A stretch of DNA of 51,523 nucleotides from assembly GCA_902385255.1 (NCBI GenBank), contig CABMEV010000009.1, positions 1 through 51,523 of the forward strand. The letters are read 5' to 3'. The DNA comes from Candidatus Tiddalikarchaeum anstoanum (GTDB taxonomy: Archaea > Nanobdellota > Nanobdellia > Tiddalikarchaeales > Tiddalikarchaeaceae). The stretch's first letter is position 1. Each line of letters starts with the position of its first letter. Below are positions 37,838 through 42,968 of the stretch, in pieces. The position numbers and the translations under genes are program-made. Below the pieces are notes generated by a model that had not been told where the DNA came from, did not search any database, and worked only from the letters and a program-made list of their open reading frames with translations.

Positions 37838-38548
37838 TTATGTTAATCCCAGCCTTTTTTCGCCATCCTCTTGTTCTGAACATTCTAAAATCTTGTTAAA
37901 ATTAGAAATGAACTTGCCAATCACGCACATATCATCCACGCTCGCTAACTCAGTCTCGAGCTCTTTATTATGCACTATCGAATAAATAAAAGTGTTAACT
38001 CCGCTATCAGACTTTTTTAACAAAATAACCTTGTCATCAATATCAGTCTGGGGAACAGGAATAATCATGACGCTTAAATCATTCTCTAAAGCTATACTCG
38101 CACACTTTTTCATATTGCTAAAAGTAACCCTTGAATCTGTGAAACATTCATACTCGCAGGGAAGAAGATAAAGAAGAGCAGTCATACCCTCCTTCCTGGC
38201 ATAATCCGCCCAGAACTTAGGATGATTATGAGACAAGAGAACATCGCCGCCGCAAAAAGGGATATACGTAACCTTAATTGCACCAGTCTTGCTTAACAAG
38301 CCAAAACCTAAATTGGCGCTTTTACCAGACACGTAACTCGTCACAGACTTAACAGAATCATCCTTGTTAAAATGTAAAATACTGACTTTCTCCTTATTAT
38401 CAGTTAATATCAAAATATCAAATAAGTAATGCAGCGCTTCAGCCTTGATATCAAGACCATTCATCTTGCCAGATGGCTTTTCTTTGGCTGAATAAGACAA
38501 AAGCGTTTTATTAAGCGTGTTAAAACAATCAGACTCGATTAAAACCAT
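37838..38548 (-). CDS. Hypothetical protein with GFGLL...PKFWADYA signature (paralog 1)
   Basis: About 236 aa from ATG 38548 (MVLIESDCF); a TTAAATAC near 38573-38580 gives a TATA box. The central block GFGLLSKTGAIKVTYIPFCGGDV...LLSHNHPKFWADYA is shared with the protein at 39074-39694. HNHP next to an Asp (WADYA) recalls a JAMM-type HxHP metal motif, but the Ser/Asp spacing does not fit, so enzyme activity is uncertain. No known family. It lies just left of rnp4 in the opposite direction. Confidence 0.65.
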   Translation of the reverse strand: MVLIESDCFNTLNKTLLSYSAKEKPSGKMNGLDIKAEALHYLFDILILTDNKEKVSILHFNKDDSVKSVTSYVSGKSANLGFGLLSKTGAIKVTYIPFCGGDVLLSHNHPKFWADYARKEGMTALLYLLPCEYECFTDSRVTFSNMKKCASIALENDLSVMIIPVPQTDIDDKVILLKKSDSGVNTFIYSIVHNKELETELASVDDMCVIGKFISNFNKILECSEQEDGEKRLGLT

Positions 38549-38627
38549 AACTAAAAACACCCATTCTTTTGTATTTAATAATATTTTGAATAAGTTTTTA
38601 TTGCGCGGTTAACGTTTTCATTAGTTA

Positions 38628-38906: not shown

Positions 38907-39093
38907 AGATATAGTAACCATAAACATTGGAAAAGAAGGACTGACTGAGTCCGTGGTCGAGCACGTAAAATTACTGCTCAAACAGCATGGGCAAATCAAA
39001 CTGAAATTCTTAAAGAGCGCAAACTTCGACGCCGGAGTACTGGAGAACAAAGTAATAAAAAAGATTGGAAAAACTATGATTCTTCAGAAGTAG
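38893..39093 (+). CDS. yhbY: YhbY/CRM-domain RNA-binding protein
   Basis: A 66-aa protein: INIGKEGLTESVVEHVKLLLKQHGQIKLKFLKS...KVIKKIGKTMILQK matches the CRM/YhbY fold, with the GKxGLTExVVxxV start and the variant of the GxxG loop. In bacteria YhbY binds pre-50S particles; in archaea it sits with Rpp21 in a conserved ribosome/RNA-processing cluster. Starts 14 bp before the rnp4 stop. It overlaps the end of the opposite-strand paralog by 20 bp. Confidence 0.88.
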   Translation: MQPSKDIVTINIGKEGLTESVVEHVKLLLKQHGQIKLKFLKSANFDAGVLENKVIKKIGKTMILQK

Positions 39094-39694
39094 ATTCTTT
39101 AACTTTAATTCTATATTCATTATGTACTCCTGTGAAAACGTCGAAAGTAAATGTATTAAAAGGATTTTTAAAAATCACTACTTCTTTGTCAAACGAACTT
39201 ATAGGTGTAGGTATTGCTAACATGTAAATACTCCTCTTGCCAACCTCAGCTGCGCAGTCAGCAAAACGTTCAATATCATCATTTAATAAGAAATTACTCA
39301 TATCAGGGATGAAATAAACAATTGCCTGCGCATTTCTCCTCTCTGCATAATCTGCCCAGAACTTAGGCTGCTTCTCAGACAAATTCATATCCCCTCCGCA
39401 ATTTTCAATATAAGTAACTTTTAGGCTTCCATCGTTTTCTAACAAACCAAAACCAGAGACACCGATTTTACATTTTAAATAAGAATTTATTTTTCTTGCA
39501 CTATCTTTTTCTGAAAAATGAATGAGTTCAACAACGCCTTTATTGTTCACAAAACCTGTAGTTAACAAGTAATCGAAAGTGTTCTTTTTAATCTTAACAC
39601 CCCAATGTTCTACTACTTCATTCGGCACTTCATTGTTCTTGGCAGCTAAGATGGTTTCAAGCGCTCTAAAACTATTTTCCGTTATAATATCCAT
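39074..39694 (-). CDS. Hypothetical protein with GFGLL...PKFWADYA signature (paralog 2)
   Basis: A 206-aa paralog of the 37838-38548 product: GFGLLENDGSLKVTYIENCGGDMNLSEKQPKFWADYA has the same order, but EKQP stands where paralog 1 has HNHP, so any metal site is lost. The rest (MLAIPTPISSFDKEVVIFKN, TFDVFTGVHNEY) also aligns with paralog 1. The ATG is 39694; GTTTATAAATAAA near 39720-39732 gives the TATA box, only 5-15 bp from the transposon edge. Function unknown; a specialised, possibly non-catalytic partner of paralog 1 is an inference. Confidence 0.65.
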   Translation of the reverse strand: MDIITENSFRALETILAAKNNEVPNEVVEHWGVKIKKNTFDYLLTTGFVNNKGVVELIHFSEKDSARKINSYLKCKIGVSGFGLLENDGSLKVTYIENCGGDMNLSEKQPKFWADYAERRNAQAIVYFIPDMSNFLLNDDIERFADCAAEVGKRSIYMLAIPTPISSFDKEVVIFKNPFNTFTFDVFTGVHNEYRIKVKESTSEES

Positions 39695-39737: not shown

Positions 39738-39745
39738 CATTTTTG
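39738..39745. repeat. Left target-site duplication
   Basis: CATTTTTG, identical to 42961-42968, directly flanks the left terminal repeat. An 8-bp direct repeat is what IS6 and IS1595-type transposases make. Confidence 0.8.
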
Positions 39746-39776
39746 TGAGCTGTTAAGTTAGCGTCACCTATTTAAA
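39746..39776 (+). repeat. Left terminal inverted repeat (31 bp)
   Basis: Begins TGAGCTGTTAAGTTAGCG and ends TATTTAAA; all 31 bases are complementary to 42930-42960. The adjacent T-G pair outside could add to the match, but belongs to the duplicated target on one side. Confidence 0.92.
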
Positions 39777-39777
39777 C
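39769..39777 (+). promoter_or_regulatory. TATA-like box inside the left terminal repeat
   Basis: TATTTAAAC, whose first eight bases are the inner end of the repeat, lies 26-30 bp before the endonuclease ATG (39799), the standard spacing here. The inverted repeat thus seems to provide the endonuclease promoter. The same sequence in the right end points inward toward the transposase 3' end, where no gene starts. Confidence 0.5.
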
Positions 39778-39798
39778 TTTAAAGAACACTGAAGATAC

Positions 39799-40437
39799 AT
39801 GCATACGGCGGATACGAAAGAGTTTATAGAAGATAGTATCGAATCCTCAAAAAAGTTGTTTAATTTCAAGGATATTATAAAAGAGTGGTCAGGTTTTGAC
39901 GTAAAACAAGCGGATAGAGAGTATAAGCCGATTATTGATAAAATAATAAATGCACTTAAATCAAACCTGAAAACGCTTAGCAATACTGTCGAAAGAAAAT
40001 ATAAAGGTAGGTCTAATGAGTTAGGGAACTTTTTGGATAATGAGCTTATTAAGATTATAAACACAATTAAAAATTATAATGCAGATAGACCTCAAACTTC
40101 AAAGGGCGGAAAACAATCTTCGGGTTATCCTGATATAGAACTTAAAGCTGAGGGCAAAACGATTTATATAGAAACGAAATCTTATCAACCGAAAACTAAA
40201 ACTTCAACGCTTAGGACTTTTTATTTCAAGCCGTCAGAAGAAAAGAATGTTAAAATAACTGAATCGTGTCCGCATATACTAATAGGATTTGAAGTTATAT
40301 CTAAAGGCGAAGAAAACAAAAGCCCTTTTATAGTAAAAGATTTTACTATAATTGACTTGTTCGATTTAAAGGTTAATTTCAAGCCAGAATTTAATGCAAG
40401 TAATCCGATGATGTATAATAATTGCAGAAAATTATAA
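39799..40437 (+). CDS. Type II restriction endonuclease, PD-(D/E)XK fold
   Basis: A 212-aa protein. The active site is clear: PD at 111-112 (SGYPDIEL) and ExK at 125-127 (YIETKSYQ), with 12 residues between the Asp and the Glu, the classic spacing. The N-terminal half is helical and charged. It is convergent with the methyltransferase, their stop codons separated by one base, which is the standard type II R-M arrangement. The recognition sequence cannot be read; the enzyme should cut unmethylated DNA. Short leaderless transcript from the terminal-repeat TATA box is inferred. Confidence 0.85.
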   Translation: MHTADTKEFIEDSIESSKKLFNFKDIIKEWSGFDVKQADREYKPIIDKIINALKSNLKTLSNTVERKYKGRSNELGNFLDNELIKIINTIKNYNADRPQTSKGGKQSSGYPDIELKAEGKTIYIETKSYQPKTKTSTLRTFYFKPSEEKNVKITESCPHILIGFEVISKGEENKSPFIVKDFTIIDLFDLKVNFKPEFNASNPMMYNNCRKL

Positions 40438-40438
40438 G

Positions 40439-41230
40439 TTATTTCAAGCTAGTTTGTGATAACTTATTAAGAGCCATTTTGCGATATTTTTTATCTATTT
40501 CAAAACCTAAATATTTGCATCCTAATTCCTTAGCAACAATGCAAGTAGTTCCCGCACCTAAGAACGGGTCTAAAATGACAGTATCCTTATTGAAGCCATG
40601 CAGCTTTATGCACATCTCAGGCAACTTCTTTGGGAACATTGCTGGGTGTTCTCTTCCAGATTGAATAGTATCATACGTAATATACCATACATTACCTCTA
40701 TCTCTCTTATCACCATTGCTCTTTCCATGTTTCCACCTTTTTATGTTAGACTTATCAGCATAAGGAACTCCAACTGCTGTTCTGTTTAATTTAACTTTTT
40801 TTGTTTTTGTGAAATGAAAGATATACTCATGTAAATTATTAAGGAACCTTGTGCTATTAATTGGTTTGTAATGACCTATGTTTACGTTGTGCTCTGGTAT
40901 TGCTATCGATTTAACCCAGTGTATAGTGTTTTGGAGCTTTAGCGATTTTGCGATTCTTTTTGCAACTTCAAAGGATTTAAGCTCATCACTTGCTTTATCG
41001 CCTATGTTAAAAAACAGTGAACCATTTTCTTTCAAGACAATCGAACATTCTTTTCCAAATTCTTCCATCCAATTTAAATATTGTTCAAAAGGCATGTTAT
41101 CTTTATGCGAATTATATTTAATACCTATGTTATAAGGCGGCGAAGTAATTATAATATCAACACTATTTGGTTCTATAACTTCTTTCATGCCTTTAATACA
41201 ATCCATTTCGTAGATTTCGTTAGTTTTCAT
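40439..41230 (-). CDS. DNA methyltransferase (SPPY type, probably N4-cytosine)
   Basis: A 263-aa methylase of the beta group order: motif IV TSPPYN at 29-34 near the N-terminus and the AdoMet-binding motif I DPFLGAGTT at 221-229 near the C-terminus. SPPY (rather than DPPY/NPPY) is typical of N4-cytosine enzymes, but N6-adenine enzymes with SPPY exist. It should protect the host from the convergent endonuclease. Its ATG overlaps the TGA of the upstream 37-aa ORF, so it is coupled to the regulatory operon, which lets the regulator genes and the methylase be made together before the endonuclease. Confidence 0.93.
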   Translation of the reverse strand: MKTNEIYEMDCIKGMKEVIEPNSVDIIITSPPYNIGIKYNSHKDNMPFEQYLNWMEEFGKECSIVLKENGSLFFNIGDKASDELKSFEVAKRIAKSLKLQNTIHWVKSIAIPEHNVNIGHYKPINSTRFLNNLHEYIFHFTKTKKVKLNRTAVGVPYADKSNIKRWKHGKSNGDKRDRGNVWYITYDTIQSGREHPAMFPKKLPEMCIKLHGFNKDTVILDPFLGAGTTCIVAKELGCKYLGFEIDKKYRKMALNKLSQTSLK

Positions 41231-41340
41231 ATTAGTCTTTTCTTTTTTTTCCGTTCTGCAATTATTTTTATTAGTTCTGGGTTTATTACATATTTTGGTA
41301 TTTTTATTTTTGGCTGTCTTATTTTGAATGGACTACTCAT
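41227..41340 (-). CDS. 37-aa basic small ORF coupled to the methyltransferase
   Basis: ATG at 41340 gives MSSPFKIRQPKIKIPKYVIN and then a helical basic end (IIAERKKKKRLI). The stop TGA shares bases with the methyltransferase ATG (ATGA), and six bases separate it from the winged-helix ORF upstream. The overlap at both sides suggests real translation. No family is recognised; it could be a leader peptide or small regulator. Confidence 0.5.
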   Translation of the reverse strand: MSSPFKIRQPKIKIPKYVINPELIKIIAERKKKKRLI

Positions 41341-41346
41341 ATTATT

Positions 41347-41550
41347 TTAACTCCTTTCATCTTTCTTGATTACTATTTCTTCCCTTTCATCTATGACACC
41401 TTTATCTTTTAATATAGGTATATACTTTTTAATTGTAATCCAGCTAATTCCACTAATCTTTGATATTTCGTTTACTGTTAAAGGTCTATTCTCTTTGATT
41501 AATACTCTGACTATTTCTTTCTCTATGCGGTTTAGTGGTTTTTTGATTAT
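41347..41550 (-). CDS. Winged-helix-like ORF without a canonical start codon
   Basis: The frame reads IIKKPLNRIEKEIVRVLIKE, then NRPLTVNEISKISGISWITI and KKYIPILKDKGVIDEREE to KKDERS (67 codons from ATA at 41550). This is a typical winged-helix layout: helix, NEISKISGISWITIKKYI recognition helix, wing strand. No ATG, GTG or TTG occurs between the last in-frame stop and the domain. An ATA overlaps the TAA of the AbrB-like gene (ATAA), placed exactly like the ATGA overlaps elsewhere. Either a non-AUG start, a mutated start, or fusion to the AbrB-like protein by an indel. Confidence 0.55.
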   Translation of the reverse strand: MIKKPLNRIEKEIVRVLIKENRPLTVNEISKISGISWITIKKYIPILKDKGVIDEREEIVIKKDERS

Positions 41551-41810
41551 TGTTCGCCTCGTTTCAGTTTTATTATTAGTTCTGGCTTTTTGGATTCTTC
41601 GATAGGATACGTTTTTATTTCAAATATAAATGTGTCTTTAGTTGCGTTAATGTTTACTGCGTCAGCTATCTTTTTTGGTATTTTTAGGGTGTATTGCCTG
41701 CCGTCAAATATGATTCTTGATTCTGTTTTCTCTTCCGTCTTTTCCTTGTTTGTTGTTATTAAGTCCTCTACTTCGTTAATAACGTCCTCTTTTATGTCAG
41801 TTTTTGCCAT
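41547..41810 (-). CDS. AbrB/SpoVT-like small DNA-binding protein
   Basis: An 87-aa protein. A charged N-terminal third (IKEDVINEVEDLITTNKEKTEEK) precedes a swapped-hairpin-like core: SRIIFDGRQYTLKIPKKIADAVNIN, with the 'r.V.IPK.i...l.i' pattern of AbrB/MazE-type DNA-binding folds. It is the first gene of the operon that ends with the methyltransferase and faces the transposase across an intergenic region with repeated boxes. It is the likely regulator of both directions. Confidence 0.7.
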   Translation of the reverse strand: MAKTDIKEDVINEVEDLITTNKEKTEEKTESRIIFDGRQYTLKIPKKIADAVNINATKDTFIFEIKTYPIEESKKPELIIKLKRGEQ

Positions 41811-41844
41811 ATTTAGTCCTATTTATATTTACTTATTTATAAGT

Positions 41845-41955
41845 ATTAGTCTATATGTATTTAAATACTTTGTTATATTAATACTCTTTAGACTAATAGT
41901 TTATCAAAAAAGAGAAGGGTTTATAAGCAAGGTATTCTTTATACTAATTAGTCTA
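41845..41955. promoter_or_regulatory. Three ATTAGTCTA/TAGACTAAT operator-like boxes
   Basis: ATTAGTCTA at 41845-41853, its complement TAGACTAAT at 41889-41897, and ATTAGTCTA again at 41947-41955, the last also part of the palindrome ACTAATTAGT (41943-41952). A degenerate TTTAGTCCTA lies at 41812-41821, at the regulator start. The boxes cover both divergent promoters (ACTTATAAATAAG complement near 41838-41850 and GTTTATAAGC near 41919), as expected of control boxes bound by the AbrB-like or winged-helix protein. Confidence 0.55.
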
Positions 41956-41971
41956 AAAGGTATAAAGTGAT

Positions 41972-42895
41972 ATGATTAACGATGACCAAAGCAAAACACA
42001 AATCGCAAACGAACAGGACAACAGAACACTTACTGTTAAGTGTAAGTTTTGCGGGTCTCAAGATTACATTAAAAAAGGACTTAGAACAACGGATAATAGG
42101 GGGAAAATCCAGAAATATTATTGCAGAAATTGTCACAAGTATTTCACGGCAGATTTGGGATTTTATCGTATGCGTAACTCTGAAGCTAAGATAACTGCAG
42201 GAATAGACTTATATTTTTCAAGTCTTTCGAGCAGAAAAGTGCGAAACTTTTTTAGACGCCATTTAGAACACAACTCGAGCCATATCTCAATACTTAATTG
42301 GTGCAGGAAGTATGCTCTCAAAGTTCAAAACTATACTGACACTCTAACGCCACAACTAAGCGGCTTATTCTATGCGGATGAAACTATGATTGACTGCCAG
42401 AGAAGGCAAGACGCTCTCTGGTGCAACGTTGATTGGGAAACAAGGTTTATCGGCGGCTTCCATTACAGCACGACAAGGAACGAAAAAGAAGCAATAACTT
42501 TCTTAGAGAAAGCAACAAAGGATGAGAGACTTCCTAAATATATTCAAACTGACGCCGCACAATTCTATCCTAAAGCTATGAAGAAACTATACTACTCTAA
42601 CAAGCTGAAGGGGTTAAAGGTGGAACACAGGATAGTAAACACTCAGAGAACAAGGAAATACAACGTACGAATAGAAACAGTCTTTATGAAAATTAGAGAT
42701 AGGGTTAATAATTTCAGAGGACTAAAAGCGTTATGGTCAGCACCAATACTATTATCAGGCATAGTCTTACAACACAACTTCATAGAAGAACACACGACAC
42801 TAAGAGATTACCCATGCGAAAGAGCGGGATTAAACTTAAGATTAGGACAGAACAGATGGCTAAATCTAATAAGACTATCAAGCATTAATAAATAA
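41972..42895 (+). CDS. Zinc-ribbon DDE transposase (IS6/IS240-like)
   Basis: A 307-aa protein. A zinc ribbon CKFC (24-27) and CRNC (51-54) is followed by a helical DNA-binding region and a DDE RNase-H-like core: D136 in YADETMID, D194 in IQTDAAQFYP and E235 in RIETVFMK. The NNFRGLKALWSAPILLSGIVLQHNF stretch resembles the end of IS6-family enzymes. The 8-bp duplication supports this. It should bind the 31-bp ends and move the whole unit. An alternative is a related archaeal IS group with a similar DDE core. Confidence 0.88.
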   Translation: MINDDQSKTQIANEQDNRTLTVKCKFCGSQDYIKKGLRTTDNRGKIQKYYCRNCHKYFTADLGFYRMRNSEAKITAGIDLYFSSLSSRKVRNFFRRHLEHNSSHISILNWCRKYALKVQNYTDTLTPQLSGLFYADETMIDCQRRQDALWCNVDWETRFIGGFHYSTTRNEKEAITFLEKATKDERLPKYIQTDAAQFYPKAMKKLYYSNKLKGLKVEHRIVNTQRTRKYNVRIETVFMKIRDRVNNFRGLKALWSAPILLSGIVLQHNFIEEHTTLRDYPCERAGLNLRLGQNRWLNLIRLSSINK

Positions 42896-42929
42896 CTAAT
42901 TTATGTGCAAAGCTTCTTTTTATAAATTC

Positions 42930-42960
42930 TTTAAATAGGTGACGCTAACTTAACAGCTCA
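42930..42960 (-). repeat. Right terminal inverted repeat (31 bp)
   Basis: Starts TTTAAATAGGTGACGCTAAC and ends AACAGCTCA; exact complement of the left repeat. Followed directly by the right target duplication. Confidence 0.92.
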
Positions 42961-42968
42961 CATTTTTG
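42961..42968. repeat. Right target-site duplication
   Basis: CATTTTTG, identical to 39738-39745, then native sequence leading to rps19e. Confidence 0.8.

Follow-up and report, generated by a model that had tools for sequence, protein, structure and literature searches.

The window analysed here (the whole stretch of 51,523 nucleotides, contig CABMEV010000009.1 of the archaeon Candidatus Tiddalikarchaeum anstoanum) carries at positions 39738-42968 what is very probably one insertion of a cargo-carrying transposon, a member of an IS6-like family of DPANN archaea that has gained restriction-modification (R-M) pairs several times. A sequence-only reading of this DNA had proposed a transposon bounded by terminal inverted repeats (TIRs), one that encodes its own transposase and whose cargo is a complete type II R-M system; support for this proposal comes from the window itself and from seven additional family members that bear a DNA methyltransferase inside such ends.

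Given an 8-bp duplication CATTTTTG, the element proper spans 39746-42960 (3,215 bp) and ends in perfect TIRs of 31 bp; both the repeats and the exact duplication, at 39738-39745 and 42961-42968, are as that reading had described them. The arms found by an inverted-repeat search (39744-39776 and 42930-42962) are 33 nt long and 100% complementary with 3,153 nt between them, while the runner-up pair in the region reached only 72% over 32 nt. The element is situated upstream of the gene for ribosomal protein S19e, and its genes run from left to right in the order endonuclease (+), methyltransferase (-), 37-amino-acid (aa) open reading frame (ORF) (-), helix-turn-helix (HTH) frame (-), AbrB-like ORF (-) and transposase (+). 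The features are:

39738-39745, no strand: left target-site duplication CATTTTTG, an exact match to 42961-42968
39746-39776, plus: left TIR, 31 bp, TGAGCTGTTAAGTTAGCGTCACCTATTTAAA, the perfect complement of the right end; its first 21 bp are the family end consensus
39799-40437, plus: predicted type II restriction endonuclease, 212 aa, with a PD...ETK motif (PADLOC REase_II PDLC03511, 6e-22)
40439-41230, minus: beta-class amino-methyltransferase, 263 aa, TSPPY (PF01555, 9.5e-53; PADLOC MTase_II, 8e-96)
41227-41340, minus: 37-aa ORF (from translation), whose end overlaps the methyltransferase start
41347-41619, minus: HTH frame with no ATG, GTG or TTG start; a homologous ORF lies in L046, an R-M-free element
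41547-41810, minus: AbrB/MazE-like small regulator, a backbone component (family profile), divergent from the transposase
41833-41966, no strand: possible operators, repeats around TTAGTCTA in the interval that separates the diverging regulator and transposase genes (direct repeat D9, inverted repeat I11)
41972-42895, plus: IS6-like DDE transposase of archaeal type with an N-terminal zinc ribbon (PF13610, 1.8e-17; NCBIfam IS6, 1.4e-26, below cut-off)
42930-42960, minus: right TIR, 31 bp (inverted-repeat search)
42961-42968, no strand: right target-site duplication CATTTTTG, matching the left copy

The sequence-only reading had suggested a search of DPANN genomes for the ends and the transposase, and this search showed that the ends are widespread. 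Among 371 genomes of the window's phylum, 67 had the end pattern, compared to 2 for a reversed-pattern control; a named genome collection yielded 78 stretches with it, nearly all of them DPANN and mostly Woesearchaeota, Pacearchaeota and Aenigmatarchaeota; viral contigs had none. An exact 8-bp duplication flanks 33 of the elements that we delimited (a shifted-flank control gave 0 of 1,570 end pairs), and three further ones (L150, L163 and L177) have paired ends but no exact duplication. The resulting set of 36 elements, the window's included, comprises 99,888 bp in elements of 485-4,850 bp, and eight of them carry a DNA methyltransferase. Their end consensus is TGAGCTGTWAAGTWARCGTCA, with positions 6, 7, 8 and 10 invariant in 72 ends, and an element in another genome, G177, has near-identical ends with a different 8-bp duplication (CGAAAATT) and different cargo. 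Thus, a duplication of fixed length and matching ends recur across many independent insertions, as defines a transposon. When the flanks of the delimited elements were joined, few long frames spanned the junction, so the insertions are mostly intergenic and the evidence for gene interruption is weak. We also noted single end matches in bins assigned to Thaumarchaeota (L107), Bathyarchaeota (L082), Methanolobus (L136), Euryarchaeota (L139) and Lokiarchaeia (L152) and to one bacterium (Zixiibacteriota, L097); these off-DPANN matches may reflect binning errors, that is, misbinned DPANN contigs, or spread to other hosts.

R-M genes have entered this family repeatedly. In five of the eight methyltransferase-bearing elements a known type II endonuclease family adjoins the methylase: the window's family, MvaI/BcnI in L039 and L045, HinP1I in L053 and BsaWI in L101. 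The other three are possible R-M systems: in L177 a C5 methylase is accompanied by a Vsr nuclease and a 313-aa protein with no recognised family, while the methylases of L178 (N6/N4) and L181 (Dam-like) adjoin small ORFs with no recognised family. N6/N4 methylases were observed in 6 elements, compared to 0.07 expected (Poisson P ~2e-10), the expectation being a genome average (77 matches of at least 40 bits in 100 phylum genomes, roughly 106 Mb) rather than a baseline from other mobile DNA. When the R-M label of all eight elements was mapped on a 43-transposase tree, 7 changes, be they gains or losses, were needed, and well-supported branches force at least 6 of them. Moreover, L101, the nearest transposase relative of the window's element, carries a different endonuclease family, which lies on the opposite side of its transposase; this argues for separate gains. 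We conclude that R-M pairs entered the transposon family several times.

The family is not specific to R-M genes, since most members carry other cargo. Family transposases are 51-70% identical to the window's, and element pairs with ~90% identical transposases align only across a module of ends, regulator and transposase (~1.1 kb), the remainder being unrelated. Cargo differs beside transposases that are up to 93% identical, and two elements within a single genome (G282) have different cargo despite 92% identical transposases. Among the passengers are Fic proteins, HEPN plus nucleotidyltransferase, LD-carboxypeptidase, a serpin, a deaminase and radical-SAM enzymes. The shortest delimited element with an intact transposase is 1,669 bp, and none with an intact transposase is free of passengers. 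Eight elements have the ends and an exact duplication with no transposase gene found (L107, L119, L133, L157, L158, L160, L167 and L180), and their cargo includes nucleotide-metabolism genes in L158 and a radical-SAM enzyme in L160; movement in trans is therefore likely. Separately, we observed conflict-type cargo in L119, L042, L047 and L125 (nucleotidyltransferase plus HEPN, Fic/Doc, and a protein weakly matching defence models), and a full-length serpin beside a transposase fragment in L163 (1850-3112).

The AbrB-like ORF belongs to the backbone rather than to the R-M cargo. With a family profile whose seeds include the window copy, we found it in 24 of the 36 elements, and since most of these have no R-M genes, we consider it a component of the transposon; a relative in L108 is barely over the Pfam MazE cut-off (PF04014). 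We considered that the AbrB and HTH genes might be an R-M controller of the C-protein type, an idea that we discarded since R-M-free elements have the regulator as well. Thus, the small ORFs of the proposed "regulatory mini-operon" are present, at about 41227-41810, but they are mostly transposon backbone. The HTH frame overlaps the AbrB-like gene and has no canonical start codon, unlike its homologue in L046, an anomaly that may be due to a rare start, a frameshift or an assembly error.

The transposase is intact (307 aa) and matches DDE_Tnp_IS240 (64 bits, compared to a Pfam cut-off of 27). Its residues D136, D194 and E235 are invariant in an alignment with 21 relatives, and the cysteines of the zinc ribbon are C24, C27, C51 and C54. 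The NCBIfam IS6 model matched 21 of 21 members tested, with a score for the window (93.4 bits) under the equivalog cut-off of 125; matches to the IS1/IS1595 models fell below their cut-offs (zinc-binding domain, 22.6 bits to a cut-off of 28; IS1, 32 bits to 100). Archaeal IS6-like elements are set apart by the signature E--F---K-R and by longer ends that do not always start with GG (Harmer and Hall 2019, PMC6807381). The window family has this signature (E235, F238 and R244 invariant, K242 at least 90%), and shares with the archaeal IS6-like insertion sequences (ISs; the archaeal clades of ISfinder, PMC6807381) the DDE_Tnp_IS240 domain, the 8-bp duplication, G at end position 7 and an end consensus of more than 14 bp. 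The ISs tabulated there are short, however (~700-780 bp, with transposases of 211-231 aa), whereas the window family adds a zinc ribbon, a longer transposase, the AbrB-like regulator and passengers, and reaches 4.9 kb. IS6/IS26 proper resembles the family in the IS6 model match of 21 members, the TGT core of the ends and the 8-bp duplication, but the window family falls below the NCBIfam cut-off, has ends that start with TG rather than GG (the first base is T in all but one of the 72 ends) and lacks the bacterial signature E-DH---K. We classify the transposase as IS6-like and of archaeal type with an added zinc ribbon, and outside IS6 as classically delimited.

The best evidence of R-M genes travelling with the transposon comes, in our view, from L039 (in G265) and L045 (in G103), which belong to two genera of one family; the window's own pair is not concerned. 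Transposase, methylase and endonuclease stand in the same order in both elements, and 2,090 bp of continuous DNA are 80% identical, while the target duplications and the neighbourhoods differ. Because transposase and methylase are equally identical (80% and 79%) at different sites, they appear to have travelled together. The endonucleases of L039 and L045 are only 36% identical, which suggests that they were replaced or diverge fast. The claim that the unit transposes as a whole is thus supported for the family; for the window unit, neither an empty site nor a second copy was found.

Several results weigh against reading the window as an insertion of a mobile R-M carrier. The family ends are absent elsewhere in the window genome, and a second copy of the unit, proposed as a check on the sequence-only reading, was found neither there nor in four other family genomes searched. 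The companion check for an empty site was also negative at the S19e loci of G002, G003 and G004; in the relatives examined the gene that precedes S19e in the window is not retained, and because these three loci are without it, no orthologous site was comparable. (Near the element, the minus-strand genes at 37838-38560 and 39074-39694 are paralogues with 32% identity and no Pfam match.) The R-M count is based on 36 draft-genome elements, and one of those counted, L177, has no exact duplication. Finally, neither Pfam nor the PDB gave a match to the 212-aa endonuclease, and the structure model made from its sequence alone was unusable (pLDDT, the predicted local distance difference test, 39).

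No N6/N4 methylase besides the window methyltransferase was found in G000; this and the single copy would both fit a real insertion that is now immobile, with the R-M genes domesticated as a host defence and the transposase a relic. We regard this as possible but doubtful: the main genes are all open, the catalytic residues of the transposase are in place, and the perfect identity of the two 31-bp ends suggests that the insertion was recent.

It is quite improbable, in our judgement, that the 212-aa protein is inactive as a restriction enzyme and that the cargo amounts to a solitary methyltransferase and an unrelated neighbour, as the missing Pfam and PDB matches and the failed structure prediction might suggest. 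The REase_II match spans residues 36-207 and a PD...ETK motif (PD-(D/E)XK-like) lies at about residues 111-127. The same model matches M. jannaschii and one other of 237 phylum genomes, G068, in which the homologue is also convergent with an N6/N4 methylase, though one of a different kind. Endonuclease relatives were found in none of the viral contigs, plasmids or phages, and in the phylum sample in G068 only; since the end pattern has no match in G068, the endonuclease also has relatives that reside outside the transposon. On the methyltransferase side, the motif order is TSPPY then FLGAG, and from the TSPPY motif and the closest PDB relative, a DNA cytosine-N4 methyltransferase, the enzyme probably makes N4-methylcytosine (4mC). 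The top plasmid match of this methylase, in Paracoccus, is 47% identical and has no endonuclease annotated adjacent to it. In the window, the endonuclease and methyltransferase genes adjoin and are convergent, an arrangement that, judged by sequence, is that of a type II R-M system. The endonuclease ATGs of three R-M elements are 52-53 nt in from the outer end of the respective element (39746-39799 in the window; L039, 10567-10619; L045, 10729-10781), and CCTATTTAA(A/G) of the end sits ~22-30 nt upstream of that ATG; the element end may double as the TATA box of the endonuclease.

That one transposon inserted twice independently, or left solo ends, and by chance bracketed a resident R-M pair is highly improbable: R-M genes are often near ISs, and the endonuclease relative in G068 lies beside a methylase in a genome with no end match, but a single matching 8-bp duplication stands outside both ends, the ends are perfectly identical, the same arrangement surrounds methylase genes in seven further elements, and in L039 and L045 transposase and methylase were inherited together.

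We favour a transposon with a fixed backbone and exchangeable cargo, working as follows. As its anatomy suggests, the zinc-ribbon DDE transposase would recognise both TGAGCTGTWAAGTWARCGTCA ends and insert the whole of the enclosed DNA at A/T-rich, mostly intergenic sites, with an 8-bp duplication. The AbrB-like regulator probably represses the transposase through the repeats in their shared promoter region. The space between backbone and ends is exchangeable, and comparison of the elements indicates that DNA enclosed by two such ends moves even with no transposase gene inside. By analogy with other R-M systems, the R-M cargo would defend its host against unmodified DNA and might make losing the element costly; on the same general grounds, the selfish, addictive behaviour that had been proposed for it might apply here.

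R-M systems are often termed mobile; as a rule their vehicles are plasmids, phages, composite structures or Tn7-like elements. In the PluTI element, reportedly described by Khan in 2010, R-M genes are said to be mobile cargo tied to IS ends. R-M genes are also known as cargo of IS-flanked units (Takahashi 2011, PMC3031569). These units and PluTI are composite structures or plasmid integrations, whereas the window has one transposase inside a single end-bounded unit. Tn7-like transposons likewise carry defence cargo, most commonly R-M, but they are larger, have several core proteins and were not found in archaea (PMC8649781). In the transporter ISs (tIS), passengers lie on an IS backbone between one pair of ends, as they do in the window; in the window family, however, all delimited elements whose transposase is intact also bear passengers, and the cargo is interchangeable and repeatedly R-M. 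The single passenger-carrying IS6 member listed in a review is ISDsp3, with a hypothetical gene (Varani et al. 2021, PMC7986276), and we found no description of the window family in the open-licence literature.

It is likely, then, that DPANN archaea have undescribed, modular, small cargo transposons, marked by an IS6-like transposase with a zinc ribbon, an AbrB-like putative repressor and TGAGCTGTWAAG ends, which serve as a general gene shuttle, repeatedly with R-M and other defence or toxin genes, and which would be a small archaeal counterpart of the Tn7-like defence carriers. One small transposase-bearing unit, whose limits the ends and duplications fix to the base, has acquired different R-M systems on several occasions in DPANN archaea, extending the IS6-like group to regular cargo carriers. 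Such a unit would be a concrete, testable vehicle for the horizontal spread of genes among very small archaeal genomes, and would make it a directly testable question whether restriction genes stabilise a transposon.

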